A DNA stretch of 64,000 bases from Bacteroidetes bacterium 41-46. GTDB taxonomy: Bacteria; Bacteroidota; Bacteroidia; Bacteroidales; UBA932. The notes beneath the pieces are model-generated. The model saw only the letters and a list, made by a program, of their open reading frames with translations. It was not told the origin of the DNA and ran no database searches. This document shows positions 1-37,144 of the stretch, piece by piece; position 1 is the first letter of the stretch, and each line of letters begins with the position of its first letter. The DNA lies in the NCBI GenBank assembly GCA_001897515.1, contig MKTA01000032.1:1-64000 (forward strand), read 5' to 3'. The translations under genes and the position numbers were made by a program.

Positions 1-2
1 AC

Positions 3-1229
3 CTAATTAACGCTATTACTTCAAAGGGTAAGGCAATAACAGATGAGCTCAGCTACCTCAAAACCGCCCTCACCGGTACTACCGAGGTGGCGGGCGGGCT
101 TATCCTGGCCAGAATGATGATGCTCAAAAACGCGATGAATCAGGTGACGGCGGGTATTTCGGGCATGGACTCAAACGACATCTTCCTGTTTGCGAATGAC
201 ACTGACGCTCTCAACGCTGCGCTCAATAACATGGCCACCTTCTTACTGAGGAGAAACGGTACCGGTAACCTCGGCACTCTTAAGTTCACCAGGAATGGGT
301 TGGCATATTGTACGCGAAATGCCGATGGAACGCTCGGTAAGGCGATCATAGAGTTCAGAAACACGCCTATTCCGCCACTTTCAGACCTCGTGGCATCATT
401 CACCGATACAAAGGCCGCTCCGGGCGGAAATGCCTCAAAAATGGGCGGTGTGCAAACGGGAAACTTCGGCTTTGGAGTTCCTATCATTGTTTCGGCATAT
501 GATAACTTCTCTATGCGCATTACGGGTACCCTTGAAGCAAGCATCAACAATGTCGGGGATATGCCGATTCTTGACAGCCACGCTGCAATTAACCTGGTGC
601 TGTACAAATACGATGGCGGAGTGTACACTGTTGAGCAAAATGTCGCTTCTCTCTATCTCCTGAGGGACGTAACCGGAACTGACTCCGATTCTGTAGCTGT
701 TGATGAAACATACACCCTCGCAAAGGGCACTTACTACCTGAGAGCCGAGTATTACATCAACACCTCAGAAGGCAGTCATGACTCCGGCTTTGTATCAGCC
801 GCGAACCTGCAGATGGTGGCCAGTGGAGCCTCAGGCAATCAGACGATGATCTTCGGAAGTAACGGATTTGTACGGGTAAAAGATGGAAACAACTTTACCT
901 ACATGAGCGATGAGATGATGGCACATAGAGGAGTGTCGGATATGCCGGGGCTAAGGGGGAGCGGAAGCGTAGCCTCCAACGGAATATTGGCAAATGTGTT
1001 CGGCAAAGCTACGGACGCAGCAAAAAACAGTACCGGCTCATACACCGTTTCTCATTCAATTGGCCATTCAAATTATAGTGTAAACCTAAATCTTGTTTCA
1101 AGCAATGCGCAGCTTAACGCAGTTGTTACTGCAAAAAATAATAACTCTTTTGATATAAAGATAGTAAACGCAAGTAATAACGCACTTTCAGATAGTGCCT
1201 TTGACTTCTCGATCTATGCGAATAGCTAA
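3..1229 (+). CDS. Phage tail / receptor-binding structural protein, C-terminal part (5' partial)
   Basis: The reading frame is open to the left edge of the window, so the gene starts upstream; the GTG at 87 is internal. About 408 residues are visible. The first stretch (SKGKAITDELSYLKTALTG, then VAGGLILARMMMLKNAM) resembles the helical end of the tail-tip and minor structural proteins of Bacteroidetes phages. The last 60 residues form a Thr/Ser/Asn-rich beta-type domain (GSYTVSHSIGHSNYSVNL, then FDFSIYANS), as seen at the ends of tail fibres. It sits just upstream of the lysis genes, where tail genes usually end. The exact role (baseplate, fibre or adhesin) cannot be decided. No chaperone or peptidase motif is visible. 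Confidence 0.7.
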   Translation, partial: LINAITSKGKAITDELSYLKTALTGTTEVAGGLILARMMMLKNAMNQVTAGISGMDSNDIFLFANDTDALNAALNNMATFLLRRNGTGNLGTLKFTRNGLAYCTRNADGTLGKAIIEFRNTPIPPLSDLVASFTDTKAAPGGNASKMGGVQTGNFGFGVPIIVSAYDNFSMRITGTLEASINNVGDMPILDSHAAINLVLYKYDGGVYTVEQNVASLYLLRDVTGTDSDSVAVDETYTLAKGTYYLRAEYYINTSEGSHDSGFVSAANLQMVASGASGNQTMIFGSNGFVRVKDGNNFTYMSDEMMAHRGVSDMPGLRGSGSVASNGILANVFGKATDAAKNSTGSYTVSHSIGHSNYSVNLNLVSSNAQLNAVVTAKNNNSFDIKIVNASNNALSDSAFDFSIYANS

Positions 1230-1242
1230 TTGTATAACAATT

Positions 1243-1791
1243 TTAATTTTGGCCTGCAGCTTTAAGTGCTCGCCACTCTTCTCCGCTAGTTGGGGTGAAG
1301 GTGAACGCAACGTCAAAGAGCCTATAAACCTCCACGAAGTTGGAGTCGGCAAAAGCGGTTATTATCTTGCCCCTGGCCTCAGTAATTATTGCGTTTGGGA
1401 TATAGGCAATAGTGTCATATACGGGTGGAGTGGCGTTCATATCAACGGATTTTCTGAATACAAAATCTCTACCCTCAATAAAATCTCCGGTATACCTGCC
1501 GCTCTGGTCTATGATATCTGTTCCCCACATAAGCAGGCGAACATTGATTGTATCTCTTTGAGCTTCCGCGAATGCCCTTGTGAGTACTGTCCCGGATATA
1601 GCCGGATTATAAAAACTAATATTTCTGGTATTCTTGACAATGTCCTTCGCGGAGAGGTTGGATTTAACTCCCGCTGCAGGGCGGATGCTTATCAAAGCGT
1701 TAGGATTAAGTTTTCCCTTACTAGAGGGCTCCTTCTCGCAACTAGCGATCAGAATTACGGCGATAATAAAAAGCAGCTTTTTCATAGTCAA
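1243..1791 (-). CDS. Small lipoprotein of unknown function, probable prophage moron
   Basis: The 182-residue protein starts MTMKKLLFIIAVILIASC, a signal peptide with lipobox IASC, so it should be lipidated at Cys18 and held in a membrane. The mature part has no recognised domain. The gene is encoded against the direction of the late phage genes, between the tail gene (ends 1229) and the holin (starts 1932), and has its own -7 box upstream. Isolated reverse genes like this in a late operon are usually morons expressed from the lysogen. The second Met (position 3) is an equally good start. A long plus-strand frame over the same DNA lacks these features and is taken as its shadow. Confidence 0.72.
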   Translation of the reverse strand: MTMKKLLFIIAVILIASCEKEPSSKGKLNPNALISIRPAAGVKSNLSAKDIVKNTRNISFYNPAISGTVLTRAFAEAQRDTINVRLLMWGTDIIDQSGRYTGDFIEGRDFVFRKSVDMNATPPVYDTIAYIPNAIITEARGKIITAFADSNFVEVYRLFDVAFTFTPTSGEEWRALKAAGQN

Positions 1792-1811
1792 GTATTTAAA
1801 AACATATATAG

Positions 1812-1819
1812 CAAAAGTA
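1812..1819 (-). promoter_or_regulatory. Bacteroidetes-type -7 box for the lipoprotein gene
   Basis: Read on the minus strand this is TACTTTTG, an exact match to TAnnTTTG, about 20 nt upstream of the lipoprotein start. No convincing TTG -33 element lies at the usual 19-21 nt spacing, so this is a single-box call. Confidence 0.4.
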
Positions 1820-1866
1820 ACGATTTCATCAATAAAAAATTAAATGAAGTCAATAAGTTATAAACA

Positions 1867-1884
1867 CTACCCCTAAAAGGGTAG
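1867..1884. other. Small hairpin upstream of the holin gene
   Basis: CTACCC and GGGTAG form a perfect 6-bp stem with a 6-nt loop. No T-run follows on the plus strand, so it is a weak terminator candidate. It may instead mark the border between the moron and the lysis genes. Confidence 0.25.
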
Positions 1885-1931
1885 ATTATTAAATCAATCA
1901 ATTACTTAATTAAACAAAACTAGGAGGAAAA

Positions 1932-2426
1932 ATGGAAACGTGGGGAAAAATTGCAAGTTGTATCATCGCACAAGCGGGCTACTTATCATTTATGTATTTA
2001 GTCATTGTGTTTTTGGTGGCCATGGACTTATGGAGCGGGGTGAGGAAAGCGAAAAAGAGGGGAGAAGCGAGAATGTCGTTCGGGTACCGCAGAACGATTG
2101 ACAAACTTGCAAAATACTTCAATACCATTTTTGTTGTCGCCGTCGTGGATCTAGTATTTCTTATCTCTCCAATTTATGAGGGGTTAACGGTTATACCAGC
2201 ATTTCCTTACATAACGGCCATCGGAGTAATTTTTATCGGCTTCATAGAGTTTAAAAGCATTCAGGAAAAGGCAGAGGATAAGCTGCGATTCAAAAGCACT
2301 AGCATGCTTGCCGGGAAGATTATTGCGAATAAAGACGATATCTCAAAAATCGTTGAGGAGGTAATGTCTTACCTGAACACTCCGGATAGGGAGTATACTA
2401 AAGGGGATAAAAAAGCGGGCGAGTAA
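1932..2426 (+). CDS. Phage holin
   Basis: The 164-residue protein has at least three hydrophobic segments (roughly residues 15-35, 66-88 and 92-108) separated by a Lys/Arg-rich stretch (GVRKAKKRGEARMSFGYRRT). The charged C-terminal tail ends in KGDKKAGE. This layout fits the phage holin families of Bacteroidetes prophages. It would form the inner-membrane lesion that releases the endolysin encoded next. A near-perfect Shine-Dalgarno, AGGAGGA at 1922-1928, precedes the ATG; this is uncommon for Bacteroidetes genes and fits strong late phage expression. The stop codon overlaps the next start by one base (TAATG), so the two genes are probably translationally coupled. Confidence 0.75.
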   Translation: METWGKIASCIIAQAGYLSFMYLVIVFLVAMDLWSGVRKAKKRGEARMSFGYRRTIDKLAKYFNTIFVVAVVDLVFLISPIYEGLTVIPAFPYITAIGVIFIGFIEFKSIQEKAEDKLRFKSTSMLAGKIIANKDDISKIVEEVMSYLNTPDREYTKGDKKAGE

Positions 2427-2995
2427 TGGAAGAGCTAAAGAAAATTGTTGCCGGTATTGCGGGCGAATTCAACTTAGAGTTCGCCACGCTAATGGCATTT
2501 ATTGAGGTTGAAAGCGGGGGCCGAGGCTTTGATCCCGCAACGGGGAAGATAATAATTCAATTTGAGCCCGTGTGGTTCAGAAAGATGTCGCCTTATACCC
2601 CTTCAGGCAAATGGTCTTTAAACGGAGTTGAAAGGCAAAAGCAAGAGTGGGAGGCCTTCAACGAAGTATTTGACCTCAATAGGGTGGCAGCTATGGAGAG
2701 CACCTCAATTGGCCTGGGCCAAATAATGGGGTTGCATTGGAAAAGGCTGGGATATAAAACCGTTGGCCAAATGTGGGACGACGCTAAAAGTGGACTTGAT
2801 CGCCAAGTATGGCAAATTGCAAAATTCATCGGCACCGATGTGAAGCTGCAGAAAGCTCTGAGCGAGAAAGACTGGCACGCAGTTGCGAGCATTTACAACG
2901 GGCCAAAATATAGGGAGCTGGCAATTAAGCTTGGCCGCACTCCCTACGACCAGTCGATGAAGCAAGCTTACAAAAAGTATTCAGTAATAAAGTAA
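2426..2995 (+). CDS. Phage endolysin, N-acetylmuramidase (DUF3380 type)
   Basis: The 189-residue protein matches the N-acetylmuramidase domain of PF11860. The N-terminal helix carries IEVESGGRGF (residues 26-35), with Glu27 and Glu29 as catalytic candidates, followed by IIQFEPVWF. The middle has TSIGLGQIMG (93-102), a lysozyme-superfamily active-site signature. It would cleave the glycan strands of peptidoglycan during lysis. There is no signal peptide, so export must depend on the holin immediately upstream. No separate cell-wall-binding domain is present and the catalytic domain fills the whole protein. Function is inferred from motifs and lysis context. Confidence 0.85.
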   Translation: MEELKKIVAGIAGEFNLEFATLMAFIEVESGGRGFDPATGKIIIQFEPVWFRKMSPYTPSGKWSLNGVERQKQEWEAFNEVFDLNRVAAMESTSIGLGQIMGLHWKRLGYKTVGQMWDDAKSGLDRQVWQIAKFIGTDVKLQKALSEKDWHAVASIYNGPKYRELAIKLGRTPYDQSMKQAYKKYSVIK

Positions 2996-2999
2996 TGTC

Positions 3000-3602
3000 A
3001 TGTTTAAGAAAGCGACTATAATTTTGTTTATGCTGCTGGCCATTGCCATCGCAGCTATCTCTGTTTCGTCGGGAATAATTAAGCGCCAGCGCCTGGATCT
3101 GCGAAGGCTCGAAAATAATCAAAACGCTCTTCTTTCCGGGATTGAAACTTACAAAGCGAAAAATGGAGTTTTGGCCTATTCTATAAAGCAGCTGGTTTTA
3201 ACAAATAGTGAGCTGAAGAAGGACAAAGGAAATCTTGCCAAAGTCGTTAATAACTTAAGAATTAGGCTGAGGGATGTTCAAACAATATCAACAACTGTCA
3301 CGCAGACAGCTGTAGAAACGCCTGTTGTGCCGCTTAGGGATTCTGCGGTAAACGTCGGAGGAAAAATTGAGCCGGCAAAGGCATTCAGCTGGAGCGACAG
3401 CTGGTGCAAAATGTCTGGGGTGGTTTACAACGATAGCGCAAAATTATCCTATAATGGCACTGACTCAATTTACACAGTGGCCCATAGAGTGCGGTACCGT
3501 TTTTTGTTTTTCAGATTTGGCACTAAAGAGATTAGGCAGACTGTTACAAACACAAATCCGAATACTAAAATTGTATATAATGAGATTGTGAAGCTGGAGT
3601 GA
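3000..3602 (+). CDS. Spanin-like membrane-anchored coiled-coil phage protein
   Basis: This 200-residue protein starts 4 bases after the endolysin stop. Residues 6-25 are one hydrophobic segment. A long heptad-like charged helix follows (about 30-95: RLDLRRLENNQNALLSGI, then NSELKKDKGNLAKVVNNLRIRL). The C-terminal half is beta-rich and ends in NPNTKIVYNEIVKLE. Small anchored coiled-coil proteins directly after holin and endolysin typically act as i-spanins or Rz analogues. I do not see a nested o-spanin lipoprotein frame. Proteins of this type in Bacteroidetes phages are mostly annotated as a DUF of unknown function, so the spanin role rests on topology and position. Confidence 0.6.
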   Translation: MFKKATIILFMLLAIAIAAISVSSGIIKRQRLDLRRLENNQNALLSGIETYKAKNGVLAYSIKQLVLTNSELKKDKGNLAKVVNNLRIRLRDVQTISTTVTQTAVETPVVPLRDSAVNVGGKIEPAKAFSWSDSWCKMSGVVYNDSAKLSYNGTDSIYTVAHRVRYRFLFFRFGTKEIRQTVTNTNPNTKIVYNEIVKLE

Positions 3603-3608
3603 GCATGT

Positions 3609-3630
3609 TGGGGCAAGAAAAAGTGCCCCA
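3609..3630 (+). other. Hairpin following the lysis genes
   Basis: TGGGGCA (3609-3615) and TGCCCCA (3624-3630) pair perfectly over 7 bp around an A-rich 8-nt loop, just after the spanin-like stop. CCCCTTAATA follows rather than a T-run, so it may stabilise the 3' end or belong to the structured leader starting at 3645. Confidence 0.45.
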
Positions 3631-3644
3631 CCCCTTAATACAGT

Positions 3645-3735
3645 ATCTCACCACCATATTTAAACGCAACCGCGCAGGAGCAAGGCACTAGGCCTAGAAC
3701 TGTCAAGGTTGCGTTACTTTTTTAAGTGGTGAGAT
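3645..3735 (+). ncRNA. Structured RNA leader element upstream of the ABC-GNAT cassette
   Basis: Two nested perfect stems are visible. The outer one is ATCTCACCAC (3645-3654) with GTGGTGAGAT (3726-3735), 10 bp. The inner one is AACGCAACC (3663-3671) with GGTTGCGTT (3707-3715), 9 bp. The apical 35 nt contain the 10-nt palindrome CTAGGCCTAG (3688-3697). The segment lies between the lysis genes and the 43-residue gene whose ATG is at 3756, and has no reading frame of its own. I do not recognise it as a known RNA family. It could be a cis-acting translational switch, an RNA-stability element or a separate small RNA. The structure is seen directly; the role is inferred. Confidence 0.55.
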
Positions 3736-3755
3736 GAACAAAATTAAAGATTAAA

Positions 3756-3887
3756 ATGGAAAAGAAAAAATTTAATTACAAGCCGCAGTACGGCATTGTA
3801 GTGATTTGCTCTGGAGAGCAGGAGCAAAAAGAGGTTTACGAAATGCTCGAGAAAATGGGTTTAAATTTAAAAGTTGTAGTGGTATGA
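3756..3887 (+). CDS. 43-residue phage protein translationally coupled to the ABC-GNAT gene
   Basis: The protein begins MEKKKFNYKPQYGIVVICSG and ends KVVVV. It looks like one compact beta-alpha-beta unit: strand GIVVIC, helix EQEQKEVYEMLEKMG, strand NLKVVVV. Its TGA (3885-3887) overlaps the ATG of the next gene in the classic ATGA arrangement, which supports both being real and coupled. AT-rich sequence precedes the start and there is no strong Shine-Dalgarno, so the structured element upstream may control it. I recall similar short proteins beside comparable phage genes, but no function is known to me. It has no cysteine cluster, so it is not a zinc-finger regulator of the Mu Com type despite the similar gene layout. 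Confidence 0.7.
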   Translation: MEKKKFNYKPQYGIVVICSGEQEQKEVYEMLEKMGLNLKVVVV

Positions 3888-5005
3888 AAGTGGAGGTTAA
3901 TCACAGGTGTAGCGATTTTAATGGCTACAGGTCTAACAGAGTCAAAAGTTTATTTAATGCAGAGTCGGGATGCAATTGGTCCCATGTTGCCGAGCTTCCC
4001 ATTGAGGACCTCAGCTGGAAGGTAGGTCTTATTGTTGGCCCTTCCGGGAGCGGAAAAAGCTCCATAGGAAAAATGATGTTTGAGGGTGTTGATATACACA
4101 ACCTTTCATCCGGATGGGGTGACGGCCCAATCATCGAGGAGATATCGCCAAACGGGCTATTCAACGAGGTTACTTCGGCGCTGTCTGCAGTAGGGCTTGG
4201 AGACGTTCCGGCATGGTTGAGGCCATTTGGGGTACTTTCGAATGGTGAACAGTTCCGGGCGGGTCTGGCCAGGCTAATTTGTGAAAAGCCGGATGTAGTA
4301 ATTGTTGATGAATTTACTAGTGTCGTGGATAGGCAAATTGCAAGAGTAGGCGCTGCTGCGTTTGGTAAGTCATGGAAGAAAACGGGGGGGAAAGCTGTGC
4401 TGCTCAGTTGCCACTACGATATTATTGAGTGGCTTCAGCCCGATTGGGTTTATGATACAGCTGAGGCGCGGTTTTACCGCGGATGTCCCCGGCGTCCTGC
4501 AATCAAACTTGACATTTTCAAGGTCAGTGGAAGCAACTGGAAGTTTTTTAAAAAGCATTATTATCTAAACCTTCCGCACCCCGTGGCGGCTCAATACTTT
4601 GTGGGGATAGTCGATGGCCAGCCGGTTGCCCACGTTGCAGTTACGCCAATGTTTACGGCAAAAGCATATAGGGCGACAAGGTTGGTTGTAATGCCGGAGT
4701 GGCAGGGGGTTGGAGTAGGCACCGCCTTTTTAAATGCCGTTTGCCAGATGCACCTGGAGGGAGGCGGTCGGAAAAATTACCGGTTTCCAACATTTTTTCA
4801 CACTAGTCACCCCCAACTGTGCGGGTATCTTAGATCCAGCGGGAAGTGGGAGCAATCATCTGCCAGCTTGATTGGCAGCAATAAGATGAAATCTGCAGCG
4901 AGCATTCAAAAGGCTCACGATAAAAAAAGCATTAGTATAAACACCGGCTCAGGTTACGGCGGCCATTTTAGGGCCGTACAGGGCTTTAAATATGTAGGAG
5001 GGTAA
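3884..5005 (+). CDS. ABC-type ATPase fused to a GNAT acetyltransferase domain
   Basis: The 373-residue protein starts at the ATG overlapping the preceding stop; the longer frame from 3806 is discarded because it would overlap the small gene. Residues 45-190 are a complete ABC ATPase: Walker A GPSGSGKSS (52-60), signature-like LSNGEQFRAGLAR (118-130), Walker B VVIVDEF (138-144), D-loop near 149 and H-loop His177. There are no membrane segments, so it is soluble and not a transporter. Residues 205-360 are GNAT-like, with the acetyl-CoA motif RLVVMPEWQGVGVGTAF (266-282) and then FHTSHPQLCGY. ATP-driven ABC modules joined to transferases suggest work on nucleic acid or another polymer. Phage Mu Mom, a DNA-modifying enzyme, is also a GNAT-fold protein. 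A role in modifying phage DNA is inference. Confidence 0.75.
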   Translation: MKVEVNHRCSDFNGYRSNRVKSLFNAESGCNWSHVAELPIEDLSWKVGLIVGPSGSGKSSIGKMMFEGVDIHNLSSGWGDGPIIEEISPNGLFNEVTSALSAVGLGDVPAWLRPFGVLSNGEQFRAGLARLICEKPDVVIVDEFTSVVDRQIARVGAAAFGKSWKKTGGKAVLLSCHYDIIEWLQPDWVYDTAEARFYRGCPRRPAIKLDIFKVSGSNWKFFKKHYYLNLPHPVAAQYFVGIVDGQPVAHVAVTPMFTAKAYRATRLVVMPEWQGVGVGTAFLNAVCQMHLEGGGRKNYRFPTFFHTSHPQLCGYLRSSGKWEQSSASLIGSNKMKSAASIQKAHDKKSISINTGSGYGGHFRAVQGFKYVGG

Positions 5006-5006
5006 A

Positions 5007-5492
5007 ATGGTTATAAAACTATATGGAGACTTAAAAGAAGAGGCCGTATGTAAGTCAAGAGAGCTAATACTGTCGCTTGGCCACGCGATAGACGAGGGAC
5101 ACTTTGCAGTTGACATGGGAGTGGCCCCTCTATTGAGGCAAAAGGTAGACGAGGAGGAAATATCTCAGTTCAAATATGGCCTGCTGGTATTTCACCCTTC
5201 TCTTTTGCCGCATAGGAGGGGAGCCTCTGCGATAAAGCATACTTATCTTGCCGGTGATCCTGTTACCGGGGCAACATGGTTCTGGGCAAATGGGAAGCTT
5301 GACGCGGGCGATATCTGCGAAATGGAGGTGGTAAGAGTAAACTATTTTAAAACCTTCCGGCAGTTCTACCAGGAGGATATGGTTCCCGCGCTGCTTCGCA
5401 CACTAGAAAGAAGTCTTAGGGCCATTGAGGCGGGACACGTTAGGAAAGTTCCCCAAGTTGAGGAGTATGCATCTTATGATCCAAAAATATAA
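5007..5492 (+). CDS. Formyltransferase-like protein (formyl_trans_N core)
   Basis: The 161-residue protein starts one base after the ABC-GNAT stop. The core VFHPSLLPHRRGASAIKH (61-78), VTGATWFW (86-93) and KLDAGDI (97-103) matches glycinamide-ribonucleotide and methionyl-tRNA formyltransferases, which normally read NxHPSLLP, GxTxH and DxGxI. His63 and Asp99 of the catalytic triad are kept. The Asn two residues before the His is replaced by Val61. The N-terminal Rossmann half is shortened compared with the usual 200 residues or so. It may therefore transfer a one-carbon unit or another acyl group, or be a non-catalytic relative. Tight linkage to the ABC-GNAT gene suggests both act on the same substrate. 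Confidence 0.7.
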   Translation: MVIKLYGDLKEEAVCKSRELILSLGHAIDEGHFAVDMGVAPLLRQKVDEEEISQFKYGLLVFHPSLLPHRRGASAIKHTYLAGDPVTGATWFWANGKLDAGDICEMEVVRVNYFKTFRQFYQEDMVPALLRTLERSLRAIEAGHVRKVPQVEEYASYDPKI

Positions 5493-5507
5493 GAATAATG
5501 TATGAAA

Positions 5508-5532
5508 AAGGGGAGCAGTATAAGCTCCCCTT
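5508..5532. terminator. Intrinsic terminator between convergent prophage transcription units
   Basis: AAGGGGAGC (5508-5516) and GCTCCCCTT (5524-5532) form a perfect 9-bp stem with a 7-nt loop. On the minus strand it is followed by TTTTTCAT, so it best terminates the YodC-side operon. On the plus strand the T-tract is weak. Confidence 0.7.
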
Positions 5533-5536
5533 ACTT

Positions 5537-5734
5537 CTAGCTAAAATTGCTATAGCCAGACCCAGAAACAGTTGAGCTATACTTTTTTAAAACCTCTTTT
5601 ACAAATGTTGCGCCTTTAATGTTACTGCCTTCAAACCATTGGCAGGAAACATCATTATCGTTTATTTCGTTGACGGTCATAACGGGACCCCCAGATTTTA
5701 GCATTACTCTATCACCTACTTTAATTTCAGCCAT
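5537..5734 (-). CDS. YodC family small protein (DUF2158)
   Basis: The 65-residue protein reads KVGDRVMLKSGGPVMTVNEI near its start and then VSCQWFEG, the diagnostic pattern of the DUF2158/YodC family. These small SH3-like proteins have no established biochemical role and are common in mobile elements. It is the last gene of the minus-strand group that begins with the integrase, and it ends 5 bases from a strong hairpin. The C-terminal tail (KYSSTVSGSGYSNFS) is low complexity. Family membership is clear; function is unknown. Confidence 0.8.
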   Translation of the reverse strand: MAEIKVGDRVMLKSGGPVMTVNEINDNDVSCQWFEGSNIKGATFVKEVLKKYSSTVSGSGYSNFS

Positions 5735-5784
5735 TTTATGCCTCCTTTTATTTATAGTTTTATATTCTTTGAAAATTGTTAGCC

Positions 5785-5973
5785 TTATTTTTTCCCGGGT
5801 TGTGTTGGGCTTGGTCTACCAACGGGAGGGGGTGGAGCGCCTTTCGTTTGCCCAGGCATAGATGGAAAGCCCGGACCTGGAGACGGAGACGGAGACGGGG
5901 GAGGAGGTGTGGGCCTTTGATTTTGCCCATCGCATGTAAAGTCTTTTACTTGCAAATCATTTAGTAAACTCAT
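5785..5973 (-). CDS. Small proline-rich protein, hypothetical
   Basis: The 62-residue frame begins MSLLNDLQVKDFTCDGQ and then becomes almost entirely Pro/Ser/Gly (PTPPPPSPSPSPGPGF and PPPPVGRPSPTQPGKK). It has a single Cys and no signal peptide or membrane segment. It starts 10 bases after the membrane-protein stop and ends 50 bases before the YodC gene, which fits a small operon. No clear ribosome site is visible. Low-complexity composition makes chance reading frames more likely, so this is a moderate call. If real, it is probably an extended, unstructured peptide. Confidence 0.45.
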   Translation of the reverse strand: MSLLNDLQVKDFTCDGQNQRPTPPPPSPSPSPGPGFPSMPGQTKGAPPPPVGRPSPTQPGKK

Positions 5974-5983
5974 AGCTTAAATT

Positions 5984-6412
5984 TTAATTAATATTTAGAA
6001 CAAAAAATATTACTTGAAATACTATGCCTGCTGTGAGGCAGAGAAATATTACGGTCAAAATATTTTTCAGTTGCTTATGACTTTTAGCCCACTTATAGTA
6101 AAGGGTAGTATCGTCGTCCTCAGAATTTTCCTTCATATCGTCAATAAAATCCATTAAGCTAAGGTCATCGTGCTTCGCCTTATACTTTCTGACAAGTACC
6201 AAAATAAATGATATCGCTAGCAGGCAGAGGCTCACAATCAGGGCCCACTTACATGTTGCCGTTTCTAACGAAATAAACTTATCGTTGATTGTAATAAAAA
6301 ATCCCAGCGCCGCTATTGAAATATAGCCCGTTGTAGTTTCTATTTCCATGTCCTTGTCGGAAAACTCTTTGGCCAAAATTCTCCGGTACTCTTCGATTTG
6401 TGTATCTTTCAT
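5984..6412 (-). CDS. Small membrane protein of the prophage integrase operon
   Basis: The 142-residue protein has a charged N-terminus (MKDTQIEEYRRILAKEFSDKD), two hydrophobic segments around 28-38 and 55-74, a charged middle (RKYKAKHDDLSLMDFIDDMK), and one strong hydrophobic segment at 119-140 near the C-terminus. I recognise no family. It lies 12 bases downstream of the integrase gene on the same strand and is probably cotranscribed. Small membrane proteins beside integrases often act in superinfection exclusion or immunity, but nothing in the sequence proves this. Confidence 0.65.
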   Translation of the reverse strand: MKDTQIEEYRRILAKEFSDKDMEIETTTGYISIAALGFFITINDKFISLETATCKWALIVSLCLLAISFILVLVRKYKAKHDDLSLMDFIDDMKENSEDDDTTLYYKWAKSHKQLKNILTVIFLCLTAGIVFQVIFFVLNIN

Positions 6413-6424
6413 AAGACGTTTTTT

Positions 6425-7645
6425 TTATTTCGCTTGAAAAAATTCGTGACTTGCCAGCACTTGCGCATTTTGCTCCTTGGTAACTTTAATATACTTAAGA
6501 AATGCTTTTTCCGTTGTGTGTCCGGTGATCATCATAATTGAAATTGATGGTATTCCATTTAGGTACATATTAGTTGCTCCCGATCTTCTGGCAGTATGCG
6601 TTGTAATTAGTTCATACTTTTTGAAAGTCCTGGAAATTTTTTTCCCGCCCTCAGTTTTAGTAATGATTATCGGCTCGTTCATGTCGACCAACTTACCAAC
6701 CTCCTTAATATATTTATTAAGCTTCGCCTCAGAAAGTATCGGCAGCTTGTAATCATATCTTTCTAAAATTTCCTTGGCAATAGGGTGAATTGGGACAACT
6801 ACTCTCTCCCCGGTTTTTTTTGTGGCCTTGTATATCATGCCATCTCTAATGTTGTCTTTTGATAAACTTTTATAGTCCGAAATTCTCATTGCGGTGCAAC
6901 ACCCAACCAGGAATAGATCTCTAGCTTTCTCTAGCCTTTTAGGAAGCTCGAGCTTATGCAATTTCTCAATTTCCTGCATAGTTAAGTAAATGCTGTCTGC
7001 CTCCTCCTCGCTTTTAGTATAGTCATCTATGGTGTCGCTAATTGGAACACCCTTTTTTTGAAAGTCGTGAAGCACAGCTTTAATATTTTTTATCTGAAGA
7101 GATGAGTAGTTAAGCGATGGCAGTTGACCTTCCTTATTTTTGTAACGCTTAATTTTCTTTGCCTGAAAAAGCTTTTGGAATTTTTCAAGGTAAGCGTAGT
7201 CGACTTGCCCGATTTCTACCGAGTCAGGCATTAGCTCACATATGGCGCTATAAGTAGTTGTGTACGCGTTAATATTTGGTTTGGTGGCATTAGTATCAAG
7301 ATAAAGCTTGAAGTAAGTTGTAAACCGGGTATCTTCTTTTACTTCCTTTTTTTTACCCAGAAAAACGTCAAGCTTCTCCCGCAGATCATCAGCATCAATG
7401 GCGCTTTTCTCTTCGTAGTAGCTTTCTACGAACTTTCTGCAACGATCAATTTTTTTATTTATTGCCTTGGCACGCTGAAATTCCATAAGTTCTCGCGTCT
7501 TCTGCGTATCCTTGTTCCAATATTTAACTGGGACAATTTCTGAAATGGAATACTTAAACGGTTTTTTCTGTCCGGAAAAAACATAAATATAAATTAGGCT
7601 GGTTTCTTTGTTTGGCTCTTTTAAAATAAATTTTATTGAAAGCAT
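6425..7645 (-). CDS. Tyrosine recombinase / phage integrase
   Basis: This 406-residue protein has the two- or three-domain layout of Bacteroidetes phage and conjugative-element integrases: an N-terminal beta-rich arm-binding region, a SAM-like core-binding domain (about 105-210), and the catalytic domain. All catalytic residues are visible: Arg254 in CTAMRISDY, Lys276 in KATKKTGERV, His350 and Arg353 in HTARRS, His376 in TGHTTEKAF and the nucleophile Tyr385. It is therefore probably active. It is the outermost prophage gene on this side, transcribed inwards, with a tRNA-like fragment about 130 bases behind its start that is a plausible attachment core. Confidence 0.92.
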   Translation of the reverse strand: MLSIKFILKEPNKETSLIYIYVFSGQKKPFKYSISEIVPVKYWNKDTQKTRELMEFQRAKAINKKIDRCRKFVESYYEEKSAIDADDLREKLDVFLGKKKEVKEDTRFTTYFKLYLDTNATKPNINAYTTTYSAICELMPDSVEIGQVDYAYLEKFQKLFQAKKIKRYKNKEGQLPSLNYSSLQIKNIKAVLHDFQKKGVPISDTIDDYTKSEEEADSIYLTMQEIEKLHKLELPKRLEKARDLFLVGCCTAMRISDYKSLSKDNIRDGMIYKATKKTGERVVVPIHPIAKEILERYDYKLPILSEAKLNKYIKEVGKLVDMNEPIIITKTEGGKKISRTFKKYELITTHTARRSGATNMYLNGIPSISIMMITGHTTEKAFLKYIKVTKEQNAQVLASHEFFQAK

Positions 7646-7772
7646 CAGGGGAATGATTAGGGGAATGATTACAAATATATTATTTAATTATTATCGAAAA
7701 AAATAAAAAACAATTATATTTAAAATGCTGTAAATTAACTATTGTAGTAAAATAAAGTAAATTAAAATTAAA

Positions 7773-7795
7773 GGGTTCTACTCCCAACCGAATCA
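7773..7795 (+). other. tRNA 3'-end fragment, probable prophage attachment core
   Basis: The sequence GGG-TTCTACT-CCCAA-CCGAATC-A reads as part of a T stem, a 7-nt T loop starting TTC with A at position 58, the 3' half of the T stem, the 3' half of an acceptor stem, and a discriminator A. The full T stem would need TTGGG, but here the bases before GGG are AAA, so homology stops exactly where phage DNA would begin. No tRNA body lies upstream. This is what remains at one end when a phage integrates into the 3' end of a tRNA gene. The isoacceptor cannot be told. Confidence 0.5.
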
Positions 7796-7810
7796 CAAAG
7801 CAAAAAAATG

Positions 7811-7842
7811 TAAGCCGCACATTTGTGCGGCTTATTTTATTA
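7811..7842 (+). terminator. Terminator hairpin downstream of the tRNA remnant
   Basis: TAAGCCGCACA and TGTGCGGCTTA form an 11-bp perfect stem with a 2-nt loop, followed by TTTTATT on the plus strand. On the minus strand CATTTTTTTG follows, so it can work both ways. Its place just after the tRNA fragment fits the terminator of a former tRNA transcription unit. Confidence 0.6.
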
Positions 7843-7891
7843 TGCTTTGACGGATCAAGCTCGCTTGAATCCGTCAAACCGCATAATAAAT

Positions 7892-7917
7892 AGCTCCATC
7901 GGAGCTTACATTTTTTT
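7892..7917 (+). terminator. Second intrinsic terminator-like hairpin
   Basis: AGCTCC (7892-7897) and GGAGCT (7901-7906) pair around ATC, followed by TACATTTTTTT. It is a short but well-formed plus-strand terminator shape, although no plus-strand gene ends immediately upstream. Confidence 0.4.
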
Positions 7918-7969
7918 CTTTGTTAGAGCCCCCCACCAGGGAACGCCGACAGAAAGGAGGCAATCCCAA
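7911..7969 (+). repeat. 59-bp direct repeat, copy 1
   Basis: The unit runs from the seven Ts at 7911 to CAATCCCAA at 7969. It recurs at 7995-8053 with a single base difference (GCCGAC against GCCAAC). Within copy 1 and its flank, GCCCCCCACC (7928-7937) can pair with GGTAGGGGGC (7974-7983) to make a 10-pair arm with one wobble on the minus strand. It looks like a dispersed structured repeat rather than a coding fragment. Confidence 0.75.
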
Positions 7970-7994
7970 GGTTGGTAGGGGGCGAGCTGTTTAG

Positions 7995-8053
7995 TTTTTT
8001 TCTTTGTTAGAGCCCCCCACCAGGGAACGCCAACAGAAAGGAGGCAATCCCAA
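7995..8053 (+). repeat. 59-bp direct repeat, copy 2
   Basis: Second copy of the unit at 7911-7969, exactly 84 bases downstream. It includes the T-run, CTTTGTTAGAGCC and AGGAGGCAATCCC. The flank after copy 2 (AGGCGTAAAATGG) differs from that after copy 1, so the long pairing arm of copy 1 is not preserved here. Confidence 0.75.
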
Positions 8054-8074
8054 AGGCGTAAAATGGTCTCCTCC

Positions 8075-8554
8075 CTACAAACCCCTCTCTAACACCGGAA
8101 AAGCAGGCTCGCAAAATCCAAAACTTCTGTAAAGTCTTTCACCATCCTTTGAGGTGTGAAGAGATATTTTGCTTACTCCTCTTCTTTCAGCTTCATCAAT
8201 TAAAGCCTTTAACACTGCTGATGAGTAACCCTTTTTACGAGCCTCCGGCAAAGTGTACATATTTAAAATTTCACCCTCAGTATATAACGGCTTATTTATA
8301 TCCCCGGGAATCTCCTTCAATACCATACCTCCAAAGCTTACCTCTTTATCATCTTCCTTTAACACATATCCAAAGAAACGCCCCTCGTCAATCGCTCCTG
8401 TAAAGTAAGCATTAAACTTCTCCCTTAAAATCTCTTTATAGCTATCAGAGATGAATCCCTGCATCTCTTCCAAATACTCTATTCTGTAATTTACAAAGGA
8501 AGATATCTTCCCTCTATCCAATAAATTTAACTCAATTAAGCCCATTATTGACAT
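8075..8554 (-). CDS. GNAT family N-acetyltransferase
   Basis: The protein of about 159 residues is a single GNAT domain. It has the acetyl-CoA binding region EGEILNMYTLPEARKKGYS followed by helix SAVLKALIDEAERRGV, and a typical ending LYRSFGF. The ATG at 8554 is preferred because it lies 4 bases after the upstream AraC gene's stop; a GTG at 8572 would overlap that gene by 14 bases. It is last in a minus-strand series with the regulator, so it is likely cotranscribed. The substrate cannot be read from the sequence; small-molecule or antibiotic acetylation is common for this subfamily. Confidence 0.82.
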   Translation of the reverse strand: MSIMGLIELNLLDRGKISSFVNYRIEYLEEMQGFISDSYKEILREKFNAYFTGAIDEGRFFGYVLKEDDKEVSFGGMVLKEIPGDINKPLYTEGEILNMYTLPEARKKGYSSAVLKALIDEAERRGVSKISLHTSKDGERLYRSFGFCEPAFPVLERGL

Positions 8555-8558
8555 ATTT

Positions 8559-9365
8559 TTATCCCTGTTCACACTCTTTGCCTGACATAATCCTCACATT
8601 GCTTAAATCTCTCCTGAAAAATTTGTCAGGTGTCTCTCCTGTAATCTCTTTGAAATCTTTAATAAAGTGAGACTGATCATAGTATCCTCCTTTATAAATA
8701 AGATTTTGATAATCTATAGTATCCATACCTGATATTGACTCCCAAACTCTGTTGAGCCGTGTAATTCTCTCTAGCTTCTTTGGAGAGACCCCAACTCTCT
8801 TAATAAACTGCCTCTGAATGGTTCTGGGTGAAACTGTAAATTCTGTCTCAATTTCAGAAACACTTTTTTCAGTTTCAGGGTCAATTATTGTATTGTAAAA
8901 AATATCTATATGGTCTGGAGTGTATTCTTCACCAGCCCGGGTTTCCAAAAACATCTGAAAGCAATCAATTTTATCTGTAAAACTATCCATGGAAGAGAGT
9001 TCTCTCCATAATCCAAAAAATGGATTGTCTGGCAATTTTACATATATATTATTACCTGCATTAATGTCAATTTTAAATACTTTTGAGAGTACAGATGGGA
9101 TACAAGTGACTATAAATGAGAGGTTAGATGCGTTGATTCTCATTAATTTACAGTCAGAGACTACAGGTGCAATAAAAAAAGAGGGGAGGTAACCTCTTTG
9201 TGGTTCTATCAAATATGGAGAGGTCCCAAAATGAAACACAAGAGATACATCTTCCCTTGGAATAAACTTTTCAAGAATATCTGTGCTCTCTATTGCTATG
9301 ATCTGCTCATACTGTTTTACCAACCACCTGAACCGCTCCTCCGGCTTGCGAAAAACCACCTCCAT
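8559..9365 (-). CDS. AraC family transcriptional regulator
   Basis: The 268-residue protein has an N-terminal sensor region of about 150 residues with no clear ligand motif (HFGTSPYLIEPQRGYLPSFF). The C-terminal AraC DNA-binding domain has the first helix-turn-helix around SEIETEFTVSPRTIQRQFIK and the second around YKGGYYDQSHFIKDFKEITG, ending PDKFFRR. The N-terminus resembles the DUF6597-type domain common in Bacteroidetes regulators. It is encoded just upstream of the GNAT gene and 17 bases downstream of the PurF-like gene. It may control the GNAT gene or the operon, but no operator can be recognised. Confidence 0.85.
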   Translation of the reverse strand: MEVVFRKPEERFRWLVKQYEQIIAIESTDILEKFIPREDVSLVFHFGTSPYLIEPQRGYLPSFFIAPVVSDCKLMRINASNLSFIVTCIPSVLSKVFKIDINAGNNIYVKLPDNPFFGLWRELSSMDSFTDKIDCFQMFLETRAGEEYTPDHIDIFYNTIIDPETEKSVSEIETEFTVSPRTIQRQFIKRVGVSPKKLERITRLNRVWESISGMDTIDYQNLIYKGGYYDQSHFIKDFKEITGETPDKFFRRDLSNVRIMSGKECEQG

Positions 9366-9382
9366 AACAATAAGCCTTAAAA

Positions 9383-11212
9383 TTAGTAGGATCTCTCATC
9401 TCTACCTTCGTACCAGTTAATAAAAGATGTATTTACAACCTTGTTTCCGCCAGAAGTAGGGTAGTCTCCTGAAAAATACCAATCTCCGGTATGATCGGGT
9501 ATCGCTCTGTGCAGATTTTCTATGGTCTGAAAAACAATTTTAACCTCTGCCTTTATGGACGAGTTTCTTACCATACTGGCGATTTTCAGAGATATATCAC
9601 TATCTGTAAACTGCTCATATATCTTTTTAACATAGTTCTTCATCATCTCTTTGTCCATACCCTGCTGCTCTTTACATTTTTTATAAACCTCATCAATAAT
9701 ATTCATCATCCCCCTCTCTCTAAGAAGTTCAACTGCAGCATTAAAAGCAATAAATTCACCCATACGTGTCATATCAATTCCATAGCAATCAGGATATCTT
9801 ATCTGAGGTGCAGAAGATACAATTACTATCCTTTTTGGTCCCAAACCATCAAGTATTCTTAAAATGCTCTCCCTGAGAGTAGTACCTCTTACAATTGAGT
9901 CATCCATTACCACGAGACTATCTCCTGGGTCAATAACTCCATATGTAACATCATATACATGACCAGCCATCTCGTCTCTGTCTGAATCCGATGTAATAAA
10001 GGTTCTTAATTTCGCATCTTTTATTACTATCTTTTCAACTCTAGGCTTTCTACCTATTCCCTTATACCTGCAGTAGTTCTCAAGACCCTCAACCATGCCT
10101 AAAAAAGAGGTCTCTGCAGTATTTGGTATAAACGAGAGAACGGTCTTCTCAAGTTCCCCCTCAACAGATTCTACAATCTGCTCTGTTAAAAGTTCACCCA
10201 ACCTTTTTCTCTCTTTATATATGTGTCTGTCATTGCCTCTGGAAAAGTAGATCCTTTCAAAAGAGCAGCAAGAACGTTTTTGAGGCTCTCTGACCTTTAT
10301 ATGGTTAATTTCTCCGTTTTTTTTGATAATTAGCGCAAATCCTGGTGATACCTCTTTAATTTTCAGGTCGTCAATATTGAAAGCAGTCCTGATTACAGAG
10401 GCTTCCGATGCTACAACAGCGACCTCGTCATCGGTATAATAGAATGCGGGCCTTATGCCCCAGGGGTCTCTCATTACAAAAGCGTCTCCGTGTCCTGCAA
10501 CTCCTGCAGCCGCATATCCGCCATCCCAATCTGAACAACTTTTTGATAGAACCTCCTGCCAATTAAGATTATCCTCTATCTGCAGAGATATCTCCTCCCT
10601 TGAGTATCCTAAATCTCTGTAATGTCTGTACTTATTTTGAATCTCATCATCCATAAAATAACCAACCTTTTCTAAAATGGTCACGGTATCTGAATAGTTT
10701 CTTGGATGTTGTCCTGCAATAATAAGACTTCTGAACAGTTCATCTGTATTTGTGAGGTTGAAATTGGCTGCGAGTGCAAGATTTCTGCTTCTCCAGTTGC
10801 TGGCCCTTTTAAGTGGATGCACCAGATCAATATTGTTCTTCCCAAAAGTAGCATACCTTAGGTGACCCAGGTATATTTCTGATATGAAGGGAATCTCTCT
10901 TTTAGCCCTCTCTGGATCTGATGTGCTGATAGTTTTACTCTCTATCTGACTGTTAATAGATCCAAAAACCTCCTGAATTGGATTTGATCCGCATGATCTA
11001 ACCCGGTCCATATATTTGTATCCCGGCTCCATGTTCAATTTTACCCCCACAATCCCGGCTCCCTCTTGTCCTCTGTTTCTCTGCTTCTCCATCAGTATAT
11101 ACAGTCTTTTGAGTCCGTACATAATGGTTCCGTACCTCTCTTTGTAAAATTCAAGAGGCTTTCTTAGCCTTATAAGAGCAATACCGCACTCATGGTTGAT
11201 TCTGTCGCTCAT
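9383..11212 (-). CDS. PurF-like amidophosphoribosyltransferase paralogue
   Basis: This 609-residue protein is about 100 residues longer than housekeeping PurF. The Ntn glutaminase domain starts HECGIALIRL, so Cys9 would be the nucleophile after propeptide cleavage, and GHLRYATFG follows. The glutamine-binding loop, usually HNGNLTN, reads AANFNLTN here. The phosphoribosyltransferase half keeps the PRPP loop VVMDDSIVRGTT. A long C-terminal extension (about residues 500-609) has no known motif. The start codon follows the stop of the PEP-binding gene directly (TAA then ATG), so the two are coupled. In family terms it would move an amide nitrogen onto PRPP. The altered loop and unusual partner leave true de novo purine synthesis in doubt. 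Confidence 0.75.
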   Translation of the reverse strand: MSDRINHECGIALIRLRKPLEFYKERYGTIMYGLKRLYILMEKQRNRGQEGAGIVGVKLNMEPGYKYMDRVRSCGSNPIQEVFGSINSQIESKTISTSDPERAKREIPFISEIYLGHLRYATFGKNNIDLVHPLKRASNWRSRNLALAANFNLTNTDELFRSLIIAGQHPRNYSDTVTILEKVGYFMDDEIQNKYRHYRDLGYSREEISLQIEDNLNWQEVLSKSCSDWDGGYAAAGVAGHGDAFVMRDPWGIRPAFYYTDDEVAVVASEASVIRTAFNIDDLKIKEVSPGFALIIKKNGEINHIKVREPQKRSCCSFERIYFSRGNDRHIYKERKRLGELLTEQIVESVEGELEKTVLSFIPNTAETSFLGMVEGLENYCRYKGIGRKPRVEKIVIKDAKLRTFITSDSDRDEMAGHVYDVTYGVIDPGDSLVVMDDSIVRGTTLRESILRILDGLGPKRIVIVSSAPQIRYPDCYGIDMTRMGEFIAFNAAVELLRERGMMNIIDEVYKKCKEQQGMDKEMMKNYVKKIYEQFTDSDISLKIASMVRNSSIKAEVKIVFQTIENLHRAIPDHTGDWYFSGDYPTSGGNKVVNTSFINWYEGRDERSY

Positions 11213-35440: not shown

Positions 35441-35890
35441 GTTATATTGCCTATTGGGTACAACTGTAATCACTAAAACAAGCAGTATTCCGGAATCAAA
35501 TTAAATATAAGCACTTATGTAAATTCCTACTATTAATCCATTTGTTTAACTATAAATTGATATGAAGAGGTGTAAATAGCTGGTTATAAATTCATTAAAA
35601 TTCGCTTAGACTGGGAAATTGCAAAAAATACCTAAAAATTACAAAATATTCAGGTTTAAAGAGGTTATAAAACTTTATATGACTTCTATAAATAATTGAT
35701 AAACAATGTAATAAGCAACCAGATTAAGACTAATAGGCACCATCTATGACGACTTTATACTATTGTCATCAATTAAACTAAATAAATTCCTAAATGGTTA
35801 CACTATGCTTGAGCTGTGTTTATATAAGTGAACTACAAATGTAAACAAAAAATCAAATTTCCGTTATTTCCCAGTAAACCTAGAATTGTA
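35441..35890. other. AT-rich intergenic region without a recognisable gene
   Basis: About 450 bases between the regulator and queA contain no supported reading frame, RNA fold or repeat. A weak relative of the operator half-site (ATGTAAACAAA, near 35838) is present. The AT-rich tract may hold further control sites. Confidence 0.4.
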
Positions 35891-35898
35891 TAGCTTTG
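35891..35898 (+). promoter_or_regulatory. -7 box for queA
   Basis: TAGCTTTG matches TAnnTTTG exactly and ends only 10-16 bases before the two possible queA start codons. The transcript leader would therefore be very short. Confidence 0.45.
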
Positions 35899-35908
35899 CA
35901 AAAAATAA

Positions 35909-37144
35909 TTGATTGTGGAGCCTGAAATCAAGATTAAAGACTATACCTATATTTTGCCTGAGGAAAAAATTGCCAAATATCCTCTACCCTCAAGAGATGA
36001 TTCCAAAATTTTAATTTTTCAAGACAATAAAATTTTTGAGTCAAAATTTTCTAATCTGGCCGACTTTATCCCTTCTGATTCAATGATGGTTTTTAACAAT
36101 ACCAGAGTTGTACCGGCTAGACTCTTTTTTAAAAAAGAGAGCGGAGCTCATTTGGAAATATTTTGCATTGAACCACTCTCTCCTCCTGATTATGCAAGAT
36201 CTTTTGAGACAACCGGGGAGACAACTTGGCGATGCATTGTCGGCAATAGTAAGAAATGGAAGAGTGACGATGTGAAGTTTGATCACTCAGGAAATTCTCT
36301 TCTGGAGTTGTGCAACCTAACTGCAACCAGGGTCTCAATTGATGGTGAAACCTCTGTTGTCAAATTTACCTGGGAGGGTGGTTACTCCTTTGCGCAAATT
36401 ATGGAGATGTGCGGTAAAGTACCCATCCCTCCTTATCTAAACAGAGAGTCTGAGGAGTCTGATAGGGATAGATACCAAACTCTTTATGCTAAATACAGAG
36501 GTTCGGTAGCAGCTCCAACTGCTGGGCTCCATTTTACTAATAGTGTGCTTGAATCTATTGATAAAAAGGGTATTATCAGGGAAGAACTCTCTCTTCATGT
36601 AGGTACTGGTACATTCAGACCTGTAAAAAGCGAACTTATTAAAGATCATCCTATGCACTCAGAACCATTTTCTGTCTCTTTGTCTTTTTTAAGAAGTCTG
36701 ATTGAGTGTATGGAACGGAAAACCATAGTATCAGTCGGGACTACATCTGCGAGAACATTAGAGAGCCTATATTATATAGGTATAAAACTCAACAGAGGTG
36801 AGAATGAAGTTAAGGATGTTGAGCAATGGGAACCTTATGGTGCTGATTTTCAATTGTCACCTTTAATGGCTATTAAATCTATATGCGAATGGATGGAGAG
36901 AAGGAAGATTGATTCATTTGAGGCAAAAACAAGGATAATTATTGTACCAGGCTATAAATTCAAAATTATTGACGCATTGATTACAAACTTCCATCAGCCG
37001 TCAAGCACACTCCTTTTATTAATTGCATCATTTGTAGGCAAATCCTGGAGAGAGATTTACAATTATGCTTTAAATAACAATTTCAGATTTCTAAGTTATG
37101 GAGACAGCTCCTTACTTTTCAGAAATCAAACCAAACTCCATTAG
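35909..37144 (+). CDS. queA: S-adenosylmethionine:tRNA ribosyltransferase-isomerase
   Basis: The protein of about 411 residues matches QueA from end to end: YILPEEKIAKYPLPSRDDSK, MVFNNTRVVPARLFF, GKVPIPPYLNRESEESDRDR, YAKYRGSVAAPTAGLHFT, HVGTGTFRPV and LITNFHQPSSTLLLLIASF. It transfers the ribosyl part of AdoMet onto preQ1 in tRNA to make epoxyqueuosine. There is no ATG at the start: the frame begins with TTG (35909), or GTG at 35915 gives MEPEIKIKDY, which I think equally likely. An insert near residues 95-120 is longer than in E. coli. The 3' end overlaps the convergent YyaL gene by 33 bases. Confidence 0.93.
   Translation: MIVEPEIKIKDYTYILPEEKIAKYPLPSRDDSKILIFQDNKIFESKFSNLADFIPSDSMMVFNNTRVVPARLFFKKESGAHLEIFCIEPLSPPDYARSFETTGETTWRCIVGNSKKWKSDDVKFDHSGNSLLELCNLTATRVSIDGETSVVKFTWEGGYSFAQIMEMCGKVPIPPYLNRESEESDRDRYQTLYAKYRGSVAAPTAGLHFTNSVLESIDKKGIIREELSLHVGTGTFRPVKSELIKDHPMHSEPFSVSLSFLRSLIECMERKTIVSVGTTSARTLESLYYIGIKLNRGENEVKDVEQWEPYGADFQLSPLMAIKSICEWMERRKIDSFEAKTRIIIVPGYKFKIIDALITNFHQPSSTLLLLIASFVGKSWREIYNYALNNNFRFLSYGDSSLLFRNQTKLH

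Follow-up and report, generated by a model that had tools for sequence, protein, structure and literature searches.

Near the start of the 64,000-nucleotide stretch analysed here (the window; positions 1 to 64,000 of contig MKTA01000032.1 from Bacteroidetes bacterium 41-46), three tightly packed genes encode a small protein, a fusion of an ABC ATPase with a GNAT acyltransferase-type domain (ABC-GNAT) and a formyltransferase-like protein (FT). This cassette is real, widespread and selected. Our favoured reading, to which we assign a probability of about 0.55, is that it would form a late-expressed phage DNA-modification module that acylates bases as a defence against restriction, and we lean slightly more firmly toward its core proposal, modification of a DNA base. 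What the cassette does is probably a covalent modification, with phage DNA as the most probable target; which group it adds is a guess. The features concerned are as follows.

3645-3735, plus strand: structured leader hairpin (folding z-score, covariation)
3756-3887, plus strand: small protein gene, 43-residue open reading frame (ORF)
3884-5005, plus strand: ABC ATPase-GNAT fusion gene, 373-residue ORF
4511-5005, plus strand: GNAT half of the fusion with a C-terminal GYGGHFRAVQGF motif (alignment)
5007-5492, plus strand: formyltransferase-like gene, 161-residue ORF

Conservation of the three-gene cassette

The three ORFs read on the same strand. An ATGA overlap at 3884-3887 joins the small-protein ORF to the ABC-GNAT ORF, and one base separates the ABC-GNAT stop from the ATG of FT; direct reading bears out this spacing, which a first-pass annotation of the sequence had described. 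That annotation had started the small protein at 3645, wrongly, as its ORF begins at 3756 and 3645-3735 is the hairpin. Its domain calls, an ABC and GNAT fusion beside a formyltransferase-like enzyme, hold up in Pfam and PHROG searches. The fusion is a full-length member of phrog_11143 (residues 1-372, E 1.8e-140) and matches ABC_tran (5.4e-9) and Acetyltransf_1 (5.3e-5, above its cut-off), with Acetyltransf_7 falling just below its own cut-off (2.3e-5). The Walker A, signature, Walker B Glu and H-loop motifs are intact; G52, S54, G55, G57, K58, S119, G121, D142, E143 and H177 are invariant across 35 ABC-GNAT sequences, and so are R266, P271, G275 and G277 of the GNAT half.

The trio is under purifying selection. 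Over six gene comparisons, the ratio of nonsynonymous to synonymous substitution rates (dN/dS) ranges from 0.018 to 0.078. Against a same-genus genome it is 0.076 for the small protein, 0.025 for ABC-GNAT and 0.018 for FT; against a second copy in the same genome it is 0.044, 0.078 and 0.077, values that are rough because dS there (1.9-3.7) is near saturation. A further comparison, with locus L004, gives 0.092 for the small protein and saturation for the other two genes. The second copy is a complete trio on contig 24, with its own hairpin and an ABC-GNAT 82% identical to the first. Matches at E 1e-30 or better occur in 5 of 149 family genomes, this one included, a patchy presence as expected of prophages.

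The first-pass annotation had staked its interpretation on whether the ABC-GNAT and FT genes keep company elsewhere, and they do. An ABC-GNAT seed was used to collect the best 80 of 538 IMG/VR stretches encoding relatives; with a full-length FT seed, 332 of 341 stretches proved to encode relatives, and the best 80 were taken, giving 79 new loci. ABC-GNAT lies next door in 78 of these 79 FT-seeded loci, and the contig of the sole miss (L232) begins 119 bases before the FT ORF. Among the 80 ABC-GNAT-seeded loci, FT is present in 68 and the sequence of the small protein, which we call the tail, in 79. Nine of the 12 loci without FT end at a contig edge in or just past ABC-GNAT; L056, L071 and L077 do not. 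The two sets share contigs, and de-duplication leaves 132 distinct loci, of which 120 have FT (a count to be read knowing that the second seed presupposes it), on the same strand in 120/120. The tail ORF ends in ATGA, GTGA or TTGA in 111 of the 132. ABC-GNAT and FT are likewise adjacent in a Porphyromonas phage, in Pseudomonas phage Komp_PAO1_1 and in the three Gordonia Sourvirus phages inspected. By tblastn, ABC-GNAT finds 52 of 50,697 phage records at E 1e-5, and FT finds 36 of them at E 1e-3. A scan of genome contigs by generic ABC motifs was set aside, with 32 of its 33 loci matching less than half of the query; L106 alone matches most of it (33% identity).

We placed these relatives on a midpoint-rooted tree of 71 out of 333 rows, left after 70% clustering and the exclusion of matches under ~270 profile positions, and hence of split ABC/GNAT genes. 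A single clade (support 100/100) holds all 26 rows with FT and also five FT-less rows, two of which are contig ends. The FT label changes six times on the tree, four of the changes being forced by well-supported branches; a single gain of FT with later losses would be the simplest account. In one FT-less locus of this clade (L071, 4669-7025), the cassette is followed by what appear by eye to be a ParB-like protein and a D12-class adenine methyltransferase.

The ParB-like tail, Com and the leader hairpin

Judged by a tail profile, the small protein (phrog_28816, 7.2e-14) resembles the last ~40 residues of proteins encoded ahead of ABC-GNAT in other phages, Gordonia gp1 among them, and on this likeness it is a stand-alone C-terminal tail of phage ParB-like proteins. 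A ParB-like gene stands directly upstream of ABC-GNAT in Gordonia Sourvirus phages, Jace, MismyG, Pmp13 and LE4, the ParB identity being that given in the record annotations. One upstream protein from IMG/VR matches ParB_N short of the Pfam cut-off (1.2e-4); Gordonia gp1 matched no Pfam family, and the tail profile matched nothing in Pmp13 or LE4. The tail may be a docking piece for ABC-GNAT that has been retained alone in the window. In Porphyromonas phage007a_Bg4 (L084, 5876-6004), the gene labelled 'acr candidate protein', of 42 residues, encodes this same ParB-type tail, which makes the label doubtful.

A second link to DNA comes through phage Mu, where the com gene (35768-35956), close to the right end, overlaps mom (35877-36602) and Com binds a hairpin ahead of the mom start, activating mom translation (available text of PMC6483171). 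In 15 loci a protein is encoded just upstream of the tail, and one representative is Com (PF10122, 3.4e-18). These upstream proteins, up to 11 of them, gave a profile that matches 56 loci, a number that includes those seeds and duplicate contigs, and in 56/56 the match lies within ~70 bases of a stand-alone tail ORF. The profile is positive in 43 of the 47 FT-seeded loci with a stand-alone tail, and Mu Com itself matches it at 5.9e-13 in a two-sequence search. Komp_PAO1_1 is one of the 56 and also has a Mu Gam-like gene. The Com-bearing relatives resemble Mu in having a Com gene that adjoins or overlaps the first cassette ORF, and in using a GNAT-type enzyme; they differ in that the cassette adds an ABC ATPase, the tail and FT. 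A phmmer search with Mu Mom found relatives in two loci only, L343 (8355-8822) and L376 (2224-2919), both of the FT-less P12024S clade; they lie 1-4 kb from ABC-GNAT genes of that clade, so a single contig can hold both systems.

In some of the loci the genes next downstream include terminase genes, and in the Gordonia phages these follow directly; none stands beside the cassette in the window, nor in the stretches shown of the Porphyromonas phage and Komp_PAO1_1.

Upstream of the tail, the leader at 3645-3735 is a predicted cis-regulatory RNA; it could work by attenuation, by switching translation or as a DNA element. It is built of an outer stem (ATCTCACCAC/GTGGTGAGAT), an inner stem (AACGCAACC/GGTTGCGTT) and an apical stem, with a U-rich 3' side, and the region 3630-3760 folds with a z-score of -4.72, matched by 0/200 shuffles. 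Judged by eye, upstream folds in 16 of 29 loci have a similar architecture with differing arm sequences, and the three-tier hairpin was not seen in the other 13 (L012, L013, L015, L018-L020, L023, L024, L026, L028, L068, L103, L104). Hairpins picked automatically had z-scores of -5.5 or below in 16 of 17 cases (60 shuffles each), values inflated by the choice of the largest hairpin; the wrong pick in L005 (-2.3) was replaced by hand, and the bounds in L009, L011 and L014 were hand-set too.

In a 17-row alignment (16 loci plus the window), 60 cells show a double change, against 26.6 +/- 4.2 after shuffling (0/500), and 76.6% of cells are paired, against 65.1%; 19 pairs have a double change, against 13.9 (3/500), and sliding the partners by 1-3 columns lowers every measure. 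Because the structure was named from per-sequence folds of the same sequences, this covariation test is tilted in its favour. RNAalifold on this alignment, made with MAFFT, found only five pairs, elsewhere, which counts against the alignment or the structure. The leader matches no Rfam family; the one match in the window stretch (E 0.78) lies outside it and below the gathering score. An RT-17 RNA (RF03020, retron-type) occurs ~2 kb upstream of the cassette in L027 (2973-3062), and an apparent reverse transcriptase was seen by eye among the upstream neighbours in five loci. Several hairpin-less loci carry motifs resembling, by eye, the TAnnTTTG promoter motif. Matches to Porphyromonas phage suggest that the hosts of these loci are Bacteroidetes.

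The third gene and candidate acyl donors

Formyl_trans_N (2.7e-13) is the one Pfam domain in the 161 residues of FT. Among profiles, the hydrolase domain of 10-formyltetrahydrofolate dehydrogenase (FDH, or ALDH1L1) ranks first (7e-42), ahead of Fmt (9e-26) and HypX (6e-16, matching its N-domain), which makes the FDH domain the apparent closest relative. H63, S65 and D99 are invariant across 41 FT sequences, and FT shares with FDH a His-Ser-Asp triad without the Asn of the N-x-H motif. This Asn, which we take to have a role in Fmt-type enzymes, is absent in 76/76 phage FT sequences (G 49, I 22, V 4, A 1); the host Fmt, by contrast, has NLH. Two familiar identities can be set aside: as a methionyl-tRNA formyltransferase (TIGR00460) FT scores 56.6 bits against a curated cut-off of 201.5, with the Asn missing, and as PurN, the glycinamide ribonucleotide (GAR) transformylase (TIGR00639), 28.8 against 150.1. 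Unlike FDH and HypX, FT stands alone, reduced in its N-terminal half and devoid of carrier and dehydrogenase domains. Gene 3 of Gordonia phage Sisko (L086, 1814-2464), annotated as a tRNA-methyltransferase, is a cassette FT (Formyl_trans_N, 4.5e-10).

According to the available text of PMC6802093 and PMC8748788, the FDH hydrolase domain transfers formyl to a phosphopantetheine thiol by means of its His-Ser-Asp triad, and for HypX the proposed acceptor is coenzyme A (CoA), with formyl-CoA as the product. By analogy, FT might supply formyl-CoA; this is the bolder guess. A sister clade gives another view of the third slot. After the ABC-GNAT gene of phage Jace come an aspartate decarboxylase, PanD (PF02261, 2e-33), and a class III CoA-transferase (PF02515, 2.2e-8), which suggests a route from aspartate through beta-alanine to beta-alanyl-CoA. 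In 39 Jace-seeded loci, several of them near-copies, PanD and the CoA-transferase occur together in 14, the CoA-transferase alone in four, FT in one (L297, which falls in the FT clade of the tree) and neither these enzymes nor FT in 20. All eight tree rows with this CoA slot fall in a separate clade (99/94) with five others; Jace itself (L087) is labelled 'none' there, although it carries both genes, as PanD and the CoA-transferase were scanned for in the later loci only. Because the sister clade has these two enzymes where the window has FT, the third slot may supply an acyl donor, a role we regard as plausible at somewhat less than even odds. In seven Jace-clade loci (L269-L274 and L279, several of them near-copies), two ABC-GNAT genes lie around PanD and the CoA-transferase, perhaps reflecting two base or donor specificities.

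A predicted pathway, its rivals and the prophage setting

These elements can be assembled into a pathway. The ParB-like protein or its tail would dock ABC-GNAT, on DNA where a ParB domain is present, and the ABC half would spend ATP to load or move on DNA or to expose a base. The GNAT half would then transfer an acyl group from acyl-CoA to the exocyclic amine of that base, with the donor produced by the third-slot enzyme: in the window's clade, FT would take formyl from 10-formyltetrahydrofolate and hand it to the CoA thiol, giving formyl-CoA, and in the Jace clade aspartate decarboxylase and CoA-transferase would give beta-alanyl-CoA. The modified DNA would resist restriction, like momylated Mu DNA, and the leader hairpin (window type) or Com (in Com-bearing relatives) would delay expression until late.

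In its fullest form, this becomes a modular DNA-acylation machine in which a common ParB-tail/ABC-GNAT writer works with exchangeable donor enzymes, producing N-formylated bases in the window's clade and beta-alanyl bases in the Jace clade, and in which the module replaced mom in Com-bearing relatives; taken whole, this is doubtful. That formyl is the group finally placed on DNA is possible, although the odds lie against it, and we know of no description of N-formylated DNA bases.

The Com link, the ParB-like partner and the terminase neighbours in part of the loci support modification of a nucleic acid, most likely DNA. The first-pass annotation had reached such a reading by way of Mom, a GNAT-fold enzyme; the co-occurrence and these three links now favour the reading, and a relation of the GNAT half to Mom is not borne out by sequence (hhalign probability 0.2%, E 0.38; hmmsearch --max E 0.21). 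This lack of detectable homology is one of several points that weigh against our reading. The Com profile found no Com in window-type loci (L001-L030), so the inference from Com passes through relatives, and a test for the Com RNA motif CC(N)2-3GAG was uninformative: the 36 loci counted as 'non-Com' had been chosen with a strict regular expression and form no valid negative set, since the profile later found Com in 43 of the 47 loci noted above. FT is absent from the other ABC-GNAT clades (0/50 loci with the SL25 seed, 0/80 with P12024S, 0/4 with LE4), so it is not needed for the family's basic reaction, and four FT-clade loci (L056, L071, L077, L103) have downstream sequence yet no FT. At 161 residues, against 205-216 in Komp_PAO1_1 and Sisko, the window's FT is N-terminally reduced and may have lost part of the folate site. 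As for formyl-CoA, HypX is not the nearest relative of FT, Fmt matching better, and the formation of formyl-CoA by HypX is itself a proposal (available text of PMC6802093).

The same genes could act in the reverse order, the GNAT half adding an aminoacyl group such as glycyl to the base and FT then N-formylating the free amine, like Fmt on Met-tRNA. The co-occurrence and Com data apply equally to this scheme, FT is homologous to Fmt, and for Mom the substrate named is an acyl-CoA, for example glycyl-CoA (available text of PMC7824862). We consider it unlikely, however, given that phage FT sequences uniformly lack the Asn that the host Fmt retains and that FT stands nearer to FDH, an enzyme with a thiol acceptor. 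The pairing of an ATPase with a GNAT domain also recalls TmcA/NAT10, which acts on a base amine, and RNA cytidine acetyltransferase is among the weak matches of the GNAT-half profile (E 0.01, beside spermidine acetyltransferase at 6e-4), but acylation of cytidine or another base of RNA or tRNA is quite unlikely: an ABC domain stands where TmcA has a helicase, and the ParB-like partner, the terminase neighbours in part of the loci and Com point to DNA.

Morons commonly lie at prophage ends, and the cassette could be one that acylates a host protein such as RNA polymerase, in the manner of Rac of phiKMV-like phages. Other phage GNATs are thought to act in this way (available text of PMC7824862), but the ParB tail, the ABC ATPase, Com and the formyl and CoA accessory enzymes would then go unexplained, and we judge it very unlikely. 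Hardly credible is an ABC/ParB-like complex that serves packaging or genome partition on DNA without covalent change, its enzymes vestigial. The terminase genes downstream in part of the loci, and directly after the cassette in the Gordonia phages, would suit such a role, but no terminase adjoins it in the window or in the stretches shown of the Porphyromonas phage and Komp_PAO1_1, the catalytic residues of ABC, GNAT and FT are conserved, and dN/dS is low.

Acylation of a DNA base by ABC-GNAT has been predicted before, a proposal that PMC7824862 credits to Iyer et al. 2013 (NAR 41:7635); the available text of PMC7824862 says nothing of FT, Com, the tail or the hairpin. Tenacibaculum phage pT24, with a predicted ABC ATPase-GNAT system, has genes found by the window protein, and its ABC gene matches the family profile (3.2e-58), but neither FT nor the tail profile finds a match in the pT24 stretch or in 80 loci of the related P12024S clade. 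Searches of the open-licence literature brought up no paper describing the FT trio, the pairing of Com and ABC-GNAT, the ParB tail, the hairpin or the variant with PanD and CoA-transferase, some of which Iyer et al. 2013 could contain; a term search of the main text of the Porphyromonas phage paper (PMC10367356) returned no occurrence of 'formyl' or 'DNA modification'. What was a loosely predicted family becomes a pathway open to testing, as the accessory enzymes point to candidate groups (formyl, beta-alanyl) with differing predicted mass shifts, and isolated phages exist for each version: Gordonia Sourvirus phages, Pseudomonas phage Komp_PAO1_1 and the Gordonia/Rhodococcus phage Jace. If the favoured reading is true, folate- and CoA-based acylation would join the known phage DNA modifications, and Com would be seen to serve an enzyme that has no sequence relation to Mom.

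The genes around the cassette place it in a prophage:

1932-2426, plus strand: holin-like gene (Pfam)
2426-2995, plus strand: N-acetylmuramidase endolysin gene (Pfam)
3000-3602, plus strand: DUF6549 protein gene (Pfam)
6425-7645, minus strand: phage integrase gene (Phage_integrase 6.3e-9; phrog_1 1.6e-23)

The first-pass annotation had wrongly set the cassette between the lysis genes and an early module. The lysis genes do lie upstream; downstream come small minus-strand ORFs and then the integrase. The window begins inside the prophage, and the cassette region would be the right end of the prophage. ARAGORN found no tRNA in 1-12000. Between cassette and integrase lies a proline-rich small ORF (PTPPPPSPSPSPGPG; 5785-5973, minus strand), which may not be a gene.

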